Shown piece by piece: positions 9,723 to 61,899 of a stretch of 64,000 nt of DNA. The translations under genes were made by a program, and so were the position numbers. Location of the stretch: assembly GCF_003287275.1 (NCBI RefSeq), contig NZ_QEVW01000001.1, forward strand, positions 124,001-188,000, written 5' to 3'. The stretch's first letter is position 1. Every line of letters begins with the position of its first letter. Source of the stretch: Paenibacillus taichungensis. GTDB taxonomy: Bacteria; Bacillota; Bacilli; Paenibacillales; Paenibacillaceae. The notes beneath the pieces are model-generated. The model saw only the letters and a program-made list of their open reading frames with translations. It did not search any database and was not told the DNA's origin.

Positions 9723-11330
9723 TTAATGCTGGTCTCGGTACTCCTGCGGCGTGACACCGAATTGACGCTTGAACACTTTGATAAAATAAGCCGGGTCCAT
9801 ATAACCAATCTCCATGCTGATTTCATACACCTTTTTGGTGGTCGTAACCAGCTTGTGGCAGGCCCGATCCATACGAAGACGCGAGATATAATCACTGATG
9901 CCTTCACCCGTTTCAATCTTATAAATCTTGGACAAATGGGTCGGATGCAGATTAACATGATCGGCGAGTACACGCAAAGAAACATCCAGATGCAGGTTTT
10001 TATCCGTAAAATCCTGAATCTTCTTCACATACTCGGAACGGATGTCCTTGATCTCGTTGGACGTGCCTTCCTTGAGTTTGCTGAGTACACTAAGCGACCA
10101 TTTGCGCAGTTTACTGATGGTGGTGAACGCTTCTCCGCTCTGCAACCACTCGATATCGTCACCCATTAAATTGGCCAAAGTTAGCTTGTTTCGGTGTGCG
10201 AGATTGGTGAACGAAGCCGTAATTAAAAAACCAGCCTCCATGCAATGCTCCCACGATTCCGACCATTTTTCATCCAGCTCCGCACAGACGGCCAGTATTT
10301 TTTCTTCTGCCGCATCCCATTGACCACTCTCTAACAGGTGAATGAACGTGGGTGGAGTATATAGGACATCCAGCGGGCCTTGCGCTGCCGGAGTCTCCAC
10401 GTCACTGACCCGCATCACGAATTCACGCTCGTCGCCGACAATTTGTCGGAAATAAGCGGAGGCCTGCCGAAAACGATCATATAGCTGATCGGGAAACGCG
10501 AACCATTCGGTGATGACGATAGAGAGGGAACCCTTCAGAAACTGCTTAACTTTGGACTGAAGTTGTACCGAAAGCTTCTCCAGTATGGTTTCTTTGCCAA
10601 TATCGGAGTTGTTCACTTTCAGTTGAAGCAAAAAGACTAGATATCCATGCTCCTCCTTCACGCCCCACACTTCCATAAACTCTCCCATAATCTCTTCCGC
10701 CATATTGATGACGGCATATTCAAGCAAGGTTTGGTCGTTGTTGTCGTATTGCCCGAATTCTTCTTCCATACGTACAAGCATTAATGCGCAATCCCCGGCG
10801 TGGAAGGGCAGATCGTAATTGGCAAGTTTCCGTGCCCATTCGCTGGAGGCAATTCGATGTCCCTGCAAAGCTTCAAGGAGCAGTCGACCCCGCAAATGCG
10901 GCAGATTCTCCCGCAGGGTAAACTGGGTTCGTTTTAGTGAACTGACGATTTCCCATTCGGTATTTAATTGATCAATGGCTTTCTGAACGGCACCCATTAA
11001 TTCATCATCCGTCGGCGGCTTCAGCAAGTAATCGACGGCTTCGAACTGGATCGCTTTTTTGGCGTAATCGAATTCGGAATGCCCCGATAAAAGAATACAC
11101 TTTATTTTTTTGTCACGGACTCTGATCCGTTCGATCAGTTCAATACCTGTCATTTCGGGCATTTGAATATCCGAGATCACAATATCTATAGGGTGGGTAT
11201 CGATCAGTTGAAGTGCTTCGTGTGCCGAATATGCTTTATGCACCTGTTCGATCCCCAGCGTATGCCACGGCTTGGTCATGGACAGGTTATCTACCCAATG
11301 TGCTTCATCGTCTACGATGATCATTTGCAT
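9723..11330 (-). CDS. YesN-type response regulator, AraC output
   Basis: The 535-residue regulator has a receiver domain (residues 2-120) with D7/D8, phospho-acceptor D54 in VISDIQMPEMTG and the KPP segment. A variable middle follows, and a C-terminal AraC/XylS double helix-turn-helix (about residues 435-535) ends GVTPQEYRDQH. The frame is open 141 bp further upstream, but that part overlaps a dispersed repeat. ATG 11330 has AAGGAGAC before it. Its partner kinase is immediately upstream at 11530-13356. It should activate the binding-protein and permease genes on phosphorylation. Confidence 0.92.
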   Translation of the reverse strand: MQMIIVDDEAHWVDNLSMTKPWHTLGIEQVHKAYSAHEALQLIDTHPIDIVISDIQMPEMTGIELIERIRVRDKKIKCILLSGHSEFDYAKKAIQFEAVDYLLKPPTDDELMGAVQKAIDQLNTEWEIVSSLKRTQFTLRENLPHLRGRLLLEALQGHRIASSEWARKLANYDLPFHAGDCALMLVRMEEEFGQYDNNDQTLLEYAVINMAEEIMGEFMEVWGVKEEHGYLVFLLQLKVNNSDIGKETILEKLSVQLQSKVKQFLKGSLSIVITEWFAFPDQLYDRFRQASAYFRQIVGDEREFVMRVSDVETPAAQGPLDVLYTPPTFIHLLESGQWDAAEEKILAVCAELDEKWSESWEHCMEAGFLITASFTNLAHRNKLTLANLMGDDIEWLQSGEAFTTISKLRKWSLSVLSKLKEGTSNEIKDIRSEYVKKIQDFTDKNLHLDVSLRVLADHVNLHPTHLSKIYKIETGEGISDYISRLRMDRACHKLVTTTKKVYEISMEIGYMDPAYFIKVFKRQFGVTPQEYRDQH

Positions 11331-11367
11331 GTTGTATTGTCTCCTTAGTGGTTGAACGCAGACATCT

Positions 11368-11502
11368 GTACACTTGCCACTCCGATGACAGAACAACCTT
11401 CCGATCGCTGTTACCCCCGGATTTATTGAATGAATTTTATAATGTGTAAATCTGGGGATAAAGGCGAGCACTCCGTTTCTTCAGGTTTTTTCTGTCCTCT
11501 GC
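11368..11502 (-). repeat. Dispersed 134-bp repeat, copy A
   Basis: Read on the minus strand, this segment begins AGGACAGAAAAAACCT, passes TCGCCTTTATCCCC, and ends with the run from ATCGGAAGGTTGTTCTG to GGAGTGGCAAGTGTA. It matches 61716-61849 over nearly its full length, with the outer thirds best conserved. It sits between the kinase and regulator genes, about 40 bp before the YesN start. Confidence 0.85.
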
Positions 11503-11529
11503 GTTTCCATGTACATGGCTTGTTCAAAA

Positions 11530-13356
11530 TCAATTCGTCAATTTATTGTTTGTATCGATATTTCCTTTATCGGAATCAGTATCCTCTTTCGGGATCTCCC
11601 AGATCATCTCGGTTCGGAATCCGCCGAGAGGGGATGGGCCGAATAGAAGGTAGGATTGATTGCCGAATAGATGCATGATTCGCTGATTCGTGTTCCAGAG
11701 GCCACAGCCCATTTCCTCCTGCAGCGGCTGCTGCATTTTCAGATTCAACGCCTCCAACTGATCCGGGCTTAAGCCGGGTCCATCGTCATCGATGTAAATT
11801 TTGCAGAACCCGTTCGAGCTCTCGCCAGTAATTCGAATTTCACCTGATGAATAAGACTTCGCTACACCGTGAATGACGGAATTCTCCACAATCGGTTGCA
11901 GCATTAATCGTGGTACGGACTGTGCAAGCATATCCTCAGGGATGTCGATGTGGTATTCAATTCTGCCATTACGCAGCTTCTGGATATCCAAATAGTTGAC
12001 GAGCAGATTGATTTCTTCTTTTAGAGAAGATGTCTCTCGCTCCACTCGTGTCGTATAACGATAGTAGGCACTTAGGTTATGCGCCATGGACACGACGGCT
12101 TGCTCGTCCTTCATCTGGGCCATGTTGATGATATAGCCAAGACAGTTATACAGAAAATGAGGATTGATCTGCGCCTGTAGCTGTTTCAGCGTAGCTTCCT
12201 TGGCCCTGATTTTTTCCTGGAACACGTTCTCGATCAGGTCTTGAATCTGATGTGACATATCATTGAATCGATGGAACAAAAACGAGAACTCATTCTGATC
12301 CTTGCTATGCAGACGTACGGAATAATCTCCGCGCTGCACGCGCCGTAAGCCCTGGATCAGCTTTTTGATCGGATATTGGATGTTTCGATATAACAGAATG
12401 GAGGCGGAAATGCCTACCACAAACAGCAGAATCATAAAGAGATAGAACAAGTTCCGACTGAGCGAGATCGGCTGCAGAATCTGATAGAGTGGAACCACAT
12501 CGACCAAATGCCAATCCAGATAGGAGGATTTCACCGAGCTAACGAGATACTTTTTCCCGTTCAGCTTAACGACATCCTGTGTGGTATCCTCTGGCGAGTT
12601 CTCATCCAGATAACGAATAAGTTCCTCGGATAGCTGCTTGTCTGCACTGCGATTCAGAATGGGTGAATTTCCTTTGTGATAAAAGAAGGGATCACCTTGT
12701 CCACCTGCTTTATACGTATCCAGCATGTTCTGAATATTCTCATAACTGAAGCTGGCTTCAATCACCAGATTACTTCCCGTCAACATGCCCGGCTGGGCCA
12801 AGGAATCCGTCAAGAACCAGTAAAAGGATTTCATATCCTCTTTTGATTCAGCACTTTGATCACCGTAGGTCCATTGTCCGCTCATATTTCTTTTCAGGTA
12901 ATCCTCATCATACCCGGAAGTTCTATTATAGTTGGCAATCACATCTTGATTCTGTTGTGAATACACAGCGTATCGGGTAGGCCATATATCGGTAACACCC
13001 GATTGAAGCATCAGTTTTTCCTGAATAACATATCGGGTCTGCATCTTGTCATAACGATCATTCCATATGTTCAAGCCATTAAATGCTCTGACATTGGGAT
13101 CTCTGGAGAGAATAAGACTGAAGTCCATCATCTGGTTAATACGGGAATCGATCTGACTGGATAAAAACGTGAGCTGCTTCGTATTGGAGACCTGTAGCTC
13201 TTTGCTTACAACATCATAAGTGACGTTGTTCGAGTAGGTATACATGATAATAATGGGGATGAACAGGACCACAATTAAACAGTTTATTTTGGCAAACAGA
13301 CTAAACCGGGATCTGGACGTTCTTCCCAAAGTTATAAAGCGCTTCCATGTATTCAT
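11530..13356 (-). CDS. YesM-type sensor histidine kinase
   Basis: The 608-residue membrane kinase has a first membrane helix near residues 22-45, an extracytoplasmic sensor of about 250 residues, a second helix near 300-325, and a HAMP linker (VQRGDYSVRL). The His_kinase box INPHFLYNCL contains the phosphorylated His, and a HATPase_c domain follows with a GPGLSPDQ segment. AAGGAGAC precedes the ATG. It pairs with the YesN regulator downstream and faces the permease operon, the usual arrangement for sugar-responsive control in Paenibacillus. Confidence 0.92.
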   Translation of the reverse strand: MNTWKRFITLGRTSRSRFSLFAKINCLIVVLFIPIIIMYTYSNNVTYDVVSKELQVSNTKQLTFLSSQIDSRINQMMDFSLILSRDPNVRAFNGLNIWNDRYDKMQTRYVIQEKLMLQSGVTDIWPTRYAVYSQQNQDVIANYNRTSGYDEDYLKRNMSGQWTYGDQSAESKEDMKSFYWFLTDSLAQPGMLTGSNLVIEASFSYENIQNMLDTYKAGGQGDPFFYHKGNSPILNRSADKQLSEELIRYLDENSPEDTTQDVVKLNGKKYLVSSVKSSYLDWHLVDVVPLYQILQPISLSRNLFYLFMILLFVVGISASILLYRNIQYPIKKLIQGLRRVQRGDYSVRLHSKDQNEFSFLFHRFNDMSHQIQDLIENVFQEKIRAKEATLKQLQAQINPHFLYNCLGYIINMAQMKDEQAVVSMAHNLSAYYRYTTRVERETSSLKEEINLLVNYLDIQKLRNGRIEYHIDIPEDMLAQSVPRLMLQPIVENSVIHGVAKSYSSGEIRITGESSNGFCKIYIDDDGPGLSPDQLEALNLKMQQPLQEEMGCGLWNTNQRIMHLFGNQSYLLFGPSPLGGFRTEMIWEIPKEDTDSDKGNIDTNNKLTN

Positions 13357-61642: not shown

Positions 61643-61715
61643 CACAGAAGATTACAGATTACCATCGGTAAGTCAGTTTACTATATAGGTTCAACAAAAA
61701 ATTACACGATAACGG

Positions 61716-61849
61716 AGAGGACAGAAAAAACCTAAAGAAGCGAAGCGTTCGCCTTTATCCCCGGATTTTCCCCTTTGAAAATAGGAATCAAAAAAATCTG
61801 GGGATAACAGCGATCGGAAGGTTGTTCTGTCATCGGAGTGGCAAGTGTA
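61716..61849 (+). repeat. Dispersed 134-bp repeat, copy B
   Basis: It starts GAGGACAGAAAAAACCT, contains a GAAGCG-aag-CGTTCGCC region, and carries a TTTATCCCC/GGGGATAA inverted pair that spans its middle. It ends with the run from ATCGGAAGGTTGTTCTG to GGCAAGTGTA. Copy A at 11368-11502 on the opposite strand matches it. It lies 50 bp before the GNAT gene. No coding potential is seen. Confidence 0.85.
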
Positions 61850-61899
61850 AATATTCTTTGGTTTAATTTATATATCTATTGAAACGGAGAGACGGTCAT

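Follow-up and report, generated by a model that had tools for sequence, protein, structure and literature searches.

What kind of sequence lies twice, in opposite orientation and each time just ahead of a gene, in the 64,000-nucleotide stretch of Paenibacillus taichungensis DNA analysed here (the window)? A first-pass annotation, made from the letters alone, had marked a 134-bp dispersed repeat at 11368-11502 and 61716-61849. Our sequence comparison found these two stretches to share 84% identity over 147 bp in opposite orientation, with a matched core somewhat longer than first drawn (11366-11518 and 61698-61852). The pairing that had been noted in the middle of the element is present as TTATCCCC/GGGGATAA in copy 2 and, with one mismatch, as TTACCCCC/GGGGATAA in copy 1. 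Strand B denotes the reverse complement of orientation A. The parts of both copies and the genes beside them are:

11366-11518, plus strand: core of copy 1 in orientation A (covariance model, 155.1 bits), between the histidine-kinase and response-regulator genes; its folding strand B is the minus strand
11387-11399, plus strand: 5' arm of the outer helix of copy 1, GACAGAACAACCT, with its partner at 11483-11496
11402-11412, plus strand: conserved motif arm of copy 1, CGATCGCTGTT
11460-11485, plus strand: conserved motif arm of copy 1, AAAGGCGAGCACTCCGTTTCTTCAGG
11470-11476, minus strand: mini-hairpin ACGGAGT on strand B of copy 1, a GNA triloop closed by A-T
9723-11330, minus strand: response regulator gene with AraC-type domain (YesN-like; PF00072, PF12833), downstream of copy 1
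11530-13356, minus strand: sensor histidine kinase gene (YesM-like; PF06580, PF00672), upstream of copy 1
61698-61852, minus strand: core of copy 2 in orientation A (covariance model, 185.7 bits, the best in the genome); its folding strand B is the plus strand
61682-61699, plus strand: left terminal inverted repeat of copy 2, TATATAGGTTCAACAAAA
61857-61874, plus strand: right terminal inverted repeat of copy 2, TTTGGTTTAATTTATATA
61740-61746, plus strand: mini-hairpin GCGAAGC on strand B of copy 2
61755-61807, plus strand: central hairpin of copy 2, TTATCCCCGGATTTT ... AAATCTGGGGATAA
61900-62466, plus strand: GNAT acetyltransferase gene (PF00583), downstream of copy 2

With its terminal inverted repeats, copy 2 spans about 61682-61874 (~193 bp). 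Both copies do lie just upstream of the genes first named, a YesN regulator and a GNAT protein: the core of copy 1 is 35 bp from the response-regulator ATG (11330, minus strand) and that of copy 2 is 47 bp from the GNAT ATG (61900, plus strand). The absence of notable coding capacity was also read correctly: a GTG-started ORF of 582 aa (9723-11471) overruns copy 1, but the response-regulator gene starts with the ATG at 11330. This GTG-started ORF was called automatically, and the element may make gene callers mis-start the response-regulator gene. No sigma-70-type promoter site was found near either window copy. A terminator-like site is present on strand A of copy 2 and absent from strand A of copy 1; termination as the reason for avoiding strand A is thus no more than an idea.

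Copy number and range

The repeat had been counted as present twice, with a whole-genome search for copies proposed as a check. Both stretches are real, but the count was too modest, as the genome from which the window comes (the home genome; 7.0 Mb, 57 contigs, 100% complete) holds about 100 copies. A covariance model built from 39 of the first 40 copies returned 108 rows there, the weakest with E about 1e-4; seven are reverse-strand shadows of stronger rows, leaving at least 101 distinct places from the 150 candidates scored. A separate sequence-profile count gave 103 copies in the home genome, and the complete chromosome of another genome of the species (G058) gave 109 rows, shadows included. 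A chance match or a plain two-copy duplication is ruled out by the 101 places and the 84% match. The unit is a core of ~155 bp in orientation A and 155-195 bp overall; in 7 of the first 40 copies, one bulge carries an insert of ~40 nt.

All 75 genomes of the genus contain the element, as do 242 of 295 genomes of the family, covering 13 of 19 genera; in a sample of the class it occurs in 27 of 299 genomes, every one of them Paenibacillaceae (searches spanning more than 40 genomes used stricter filters). None of 50,697 phage records contained it, and plasmid records gave two weak and partial matches, on large replicons of one species. The core motif was also seen in 19 stretches (L373-L391) on 18 IMG/VR contigs, which perhaps represent chromosome joined to predicted prophages.

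A covarying hairpin around a fixed motif

RNAalifold recovered three parts: the outer helix, the upper portion of the central hairpin and one local hairpin to the side. Single-sequence folds led to a 45-pair structure that joins these into one long imperfect hairpin. Double changes fall in 18 pairs in the home genome, against 6.5 +/- 1.7 after shuffling, and 92.9% of cells are paired. For other genera (33 rows from eight genomes), 34 of the 45 pairs show double changes and 94% of cells are paired; with reverse-strand shadows removed, there are 275 double-changed cells against 84 +/- 7 in shuffled alignments (maximum 106 in 500 shuffles), and with 10 short shadows kept the figures are 285 and 86. 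Other alignments also contained shadows, 13 of them full-length in one case, and repeating the counts after their removal altered none of our conclusions. These cells are not independent, because the rows are related, and covariance-model alignments favour the model structure. The stem covariance that the first-pass annotation had proposed to compute is thus present; only two copies without covariance had been named as the finding that would speak against a spreading element, and we find 101 places with strong stem covariation.

In other genera the stem sequences are mostly different, and CTTNCGATCGCTGTTG and CAAAGGCGAACGCTNCGCTTCTYCAGA are largely kept. The best-conserved part of the element is this internal asymmetric motif, not the ends, and the fixed mismatches and loops are retained across genera. 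At the site of copy 1, central hairpins of two kinds (TTATCCCC... or TTCAAGCCCC...) occur with two kinds of outer stem in combinations that differ among genomes, which reads as an exchange of modules between copies; the motif is retained there although entire stems have been substituted. Constraint acts on the pairing, on the fixed motif and on one strand. No known RNA family matches: Rfam gave no hit in the window at the gathering score, and for the region of copy 2, searched at E up to 10, the best match reached 19.6 bits against a cut-off of 98.

Strand B and its mini-hairpin

On strand B, a bulge of the hairpin holds a mini-hairpin of the form GC-GNA-GC. Three-base loops were matched in 61 of 98 copies of the home genome, 73 of 115 in other Paenibacillus, 21 of 33 in other genera and 42 of 45 at the copy 1 site. 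In the first three of these sets, loop base 1 is G in 58/61, 67/73 and 19/21 and loop base 3 is A in 61/61, 73/73 and 20/21, the middle base being free; at the copy 1 site, base 1 is G in 31/42 and A in 11/42. G-C and A-T alternate as the closing pair (47 and 11 copies in the home genome), which covaries. Four-base loops are GNNA in 17 of 20 cases, of which only 3 are GNRA. On strand A, the counterparts of the three- and four-base loops would be pyrimidine-rich. Very stable DNA mini-hairpins are characterized in an excerpt of one paper by "a GNA or GNNA loop and at least two G-C pairs" (PMC4686876).

In most copies, strand B folds at a lower energy than strand A. With RNA parameters this holds for 83/98 copies of the home genome, 104/115 of other Paenibacillus, 29/33 of other genera and 32/45 at the copy 1 site, and with DNA parameters for 89/98, 111/115, 30/33 and 41/45, respectively. 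This advantage of strand B is compatible with RNA and DNA alike. Wobble pairs over all copies number 140 on strand A and 175 on strand B (p=0.055). In the 40 copies without other mismatches, strand B has 33 wobble cells against 14 on strand A (16 vs 2 copies); the 77 copies with one other mismatch have 41 on A and 65 on B, and more decayed copies show no lean. Counts per pair (A:B) are 4:8, 6:10 and 3:9, none significant. A SAM riboswitch control gave 22 GU vs 7 AC, two constitutive G-U pairs being excluded. Wobble is not decisive as a test of RNA against DNA, and we dropped the argument "no wobble, therefore DNA only", as the least decayed copies lean to wobble on strand B.

Position relative to genes and replication

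Strand B is usually the sense strand of the neighbouring genes. Among 103 elements of the home genome, 82 could be counted (17 overlap a predicted ORF and the rest are without a neighbour): 57 are codirectional with B, 6 are against it, 11 are divergent and 8 convergent (p=1.6e-11). For other Paenibacillus, with 102 counted of 138 elements (16 overlapping, 20 at an edge), the figures are 62, 11, 19 and 10 (p=9e-10), and background gaps split 78 vs 77. The 27 copies without overlap among the 33 rows of other genera comprise 13 with B, 5 against, 1 divergent and 8 convergent, so that there the orientation bias is weaker and a larger share of the sites is convergent. From the core to the predicted start codon downstream on B, the median distance is 52 bp in the home genome and 50 bp in other Paenibacillus; these distances are approximate because genes were longest-ORF calls, not annotations. 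In copies inspected by eye, the ends finish just short of the ribosome-binding site. The genes downstream on B, 66 of 68 of which were scanned, carry 117 Pfam families, the commonest in 4 genes, and have no common pathway by Pfam; core families are represented among them, with enolase, SecA and thymidylate synthase as examples.

Replication is largely confounded with gene direction. In the complete chromosome, with the origin assumed near base 1 and the terminus near 3.75 Mb, strand B runs with replication in 82 of the 100 copies counted. These counts used 100 of 109 rows there and 97 of 108 rows in the home genome (excluding 7 shadows together with 4 weak or end rows). In the 73 of 82 copies available for a joint comparison, from which unplaceable contigs were excluded, B is leading in 47/50 copies with leading genes, 12/18 neutral copies and 2/5 with head-on genes. 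Replication as the sole cause of the orientation bias is rejected, since gene direction adds to it. A genome of another genus (G260) showed no clear polarity along its chromosome, judged by eye from part of its rows.

Gain, loss and persistence at individual sites

The site of copy 2 is filled in the second genome of the species (G058) and, with a long variant, in G057 and in P. xylanivorans. In six further genomes the site is a short gap with no element; copy 2 is therefore a lineage-specific gain. In G020, only the left ~40 bp are left, with the junction at a ACGGAGAG repeat. This repeat is common to the element and to the stretch just before the next gene, giving a natural deletion derivative. 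The long variant in G057, with an extra hairpin of ~40 nt, stands where the window has the short form at 61698-61852, and so the two forms interconvert in place.

The kinase-regulator gene pair around copy 1 was examined in 49 of the genus's 75 genomes, including two from a single species. The element is present, with unchanged direction, in 45 of the 49; where it is absent (four genomes), the two genes lie about 1.5-3 kb apart. This persistence suggests a function in place. In one genome (G054), the kinase-regulator gap holds two adjacent elements that differ in score class.

Ends and mobility machinery

In 69 of 204 copies, both ends carry the inverted repeat with 12 or more of its 18 positions matching; the left terminal repeat occurs in 97/204, against 16/204 after shuffling. 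Where longer ends are present, they are of the type TATATAAGTTGAACTAAA ... TTTAGTTCAACTTATATA, and terminal inverted repeats were seen by eye in some copies of other genera. Aligning the ends for target duplications, a further check proposed at the outset, gave short direct repeats (2-6 bases) beyond the ends in numbers near expectation (6, 2, 0, 1 and 0, against 3.9, 1.2, 0.4, 0.1 and 0), with the proviso that a TA duplication could hide in TATA ends. Several pairs of filled and empty sites were found, whose junctions are blurred by short-repeat deletions.

No parent transposon with the same ends was found in about 1.7 Mb of DNA, nor with one exact 13-base pattern across the home genome. A search for an autonomous copy among 360 clusters gave 15 partial ones, none with the complementary half elsewhere in the same locus. 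The Y1 transposase domain of RAYT proteins (PF01797, Y1_Tnp) has no match in the home genome, and 5 of 14 control genomes are positive. Two lone terminal repeats in the home genome (L267 at about 2026, L268 at about 2008) are deletion or truncation remnants, one an internally deleted element and the other truncated; the truncated one adjoins a predicted gene of 691 codons.

Discussion

The first-pass annotation had proposed a non-coding element that spreads, and this idea stands: there are about 100 dispersed copies, with strong stem covariation and a fixed direction upstream of genes. The label MITE-like suits the short, non-coding unit and the terminal inverted repeats of 69/204 copies; no target duplication could be demonstrated, and no parent transposon was found in the about 1.7 Mb of DNA searched. 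The label REP-like, in the strict sense, is not supported by a unit of 155-195 bp in a genome without a PF01797 match. The imperfect hairpin covaries around a fixed asymmetric motif, has been gained at one site and decays by deletion; its strand B folds better than strand A and is usually sense to the genes beside it. Based on these findings, we consider the chances about even that the repeat is a non-coding, non-autonomous, MITE-like interspersed element of Paenibacillaceae whose strand B hairpin is moved in trans. A trans-acting enzyme would recognize strand B as a single-stranded hairpin; in most copies of the complete chromosome, B would be the lagging-strand template. The recognition handle could be the conserved bulge with its d(GC-GNA-GC)/d(GC-GNNA-GC) mini-hairpin. 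For the outer stems and the central hairpin, pairing alone would be needed, which would be why they drift and swap between copies. Survival would be best for intergenic copies whose B strand is the message; such copies would be incorporated into leaders or intercistronic transcripts, where they may modulate expression.

Several observations sit uneasily with this mobile hairpin. The transposase, the parent element and the target duplication were all not found, and without Y1_Tnp the best-known transposases of single-strand hairpins are missing from the genome. Replication direction alone fails to account for the orientation (47/50, 12/18 and 2/5), the other-genus chromosome has no clear polarity by eye, loop base 1 is A in 11/42 at the copy 1 site, and the filling of that site in 45/49 genomes suggests function in place. 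The folding advantage of strand B also suits RNA. The RNA reading is a strong rival, which we rate as a real if lesser possibility: strand B would be a folded mRNA leader or intercistronic element, acting on stability, processing or translation and selected on expression, with mobility secondary. B is sense in 57/63 codirectional settings of the home genome and 62/73 of other species, the predicted start codon follows the core at a distance of about 50 bp, and gene direction counts beyond replication. Presence and direction are retained at the copy 1 site, and in the 40 mismatch-free copies the wobble lean to B (33 vs 14) resembles that of the SAM riboswitch control (22 vs 7). The RNA reading has in turn to accommodate wobble that is near even over all copies (140 vs 175, p=0.055) and not significant per pair, 66 downstream genes with 117 Pfam families and without a common pathway, four-base loops that are GNNA rather than GNRA, and a copy 2 site filled in close relatives only. 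The B strand may thus act either in the form of single-stranded DNA or within an mRNA leader.

It is unlikely, in our judgement, that the repeat is an ordinary MITE. Such an element would derive by internal deletion from a DDE insertion sequence with terminal inverted repeats, and its internal fold would be a side effect of the long inverted repeats. The TATATAAGTTGAACTAAA-type repeats at both ends of 69/204 copies, seen again by eye in some copies of other genera, and the lone ends left behind by deletion are what such an origin would give; conservation nevertheless peaks at the internal asymmetric motif rather than at the ends, the fixed mismatches and loops recur from genus to genus, and neither a target duplication nor a parent with these ends was found in about 1.7 Mb of DNA. 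A REP or REPIN moved by a RAYT (Y1) transposase shares the palindromic form, the intergenic placing and the about 100 copies. We hold it to be highly improbable, as PF01797 has no match in the home genome with 5/14 controls positive, and the unit is far longer than the 20-40 bp given for REP in an excerpt of PMC3733652. A RAYT/IS200 type is disfavoured by the lack of Y1_Tnp in the genome. Our preferred reading, the mobile strand B hairpin, could be extended, though this is a doubtful step, to a class of single-strand mobile elements with a stable GNA/GNNA mini-hairpin, moved by a non-Y1 enzyme, exchanging modules at the fixed motif and adopted as sense mRNA leaders at conserved sites such as that of the yesN-like gene.

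Imperfect palindromes of roughly 100-200 bp that are intergenic and partly transcribed are familiar as ERIC/IRU, NEMIS/Correia and BOX-type repeats. The Paenibacillaceae element is like them in palindrome, size and placing, and they belong to other lineages; we know of no fixed asymmetric motif with a GNA/GNNA mini-hairpin, or of a like strand bias, in any of them. The closest known kind is bcr1 (with bcr2 and bcr3) of the Bacillus cereus group, which published excerpts describe as MITE-like, folded and often in UTRs or operon gaps (PMC3446304, PMC2267715). Going by such descriptions, the two are alike in being about 150 bp, intergenic, folded and MITE-like. They differ in that ours belongs to another bacterial family and no end duplication was seen in it, whereas bcr mobility is linked, in an excerpt of PMC6542083, to a TTTAT motif; direct repeats of any sequence outside the ends of our element are not beyond chance. 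In REPIN/RAYT and IS200/IS605, a hairpin is recognized on one strand, as we propose here, and IS200/IS605 members target the lagging-strand template, according to an excerpt of PMC6006769; unlike them, our element is much longer and its genome has no Y1_Tnp match. No published account of such a repeat in Paenibacillus was found in the open-licence PMC literature, and a term search of the excerpted text of a review of prokaryotic MITEs (PMC10969869) gave no hit for Paenibacillus, Bacillus, bcr1 or hairpin. This family of small mobile hairpins in Paenibacillaceae is apparently undescribed so far.

The element has about 100 copies here and is present in most sampled genomes of its family, yet has no Rfam match. 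Its strand-specific covarying fold and fixed motif pose two testable questions. One is which agent moves the element, the other whether interspersed hairpins in bacteria are retained as mRNA leaders. Copies are also numerous in the other-genus genome G260, with 146 rows in one chromosome. Three of them lie in close tandem at 914690-915374, and the copies examined there have outer ends unlike those of Paenibacillus copies.
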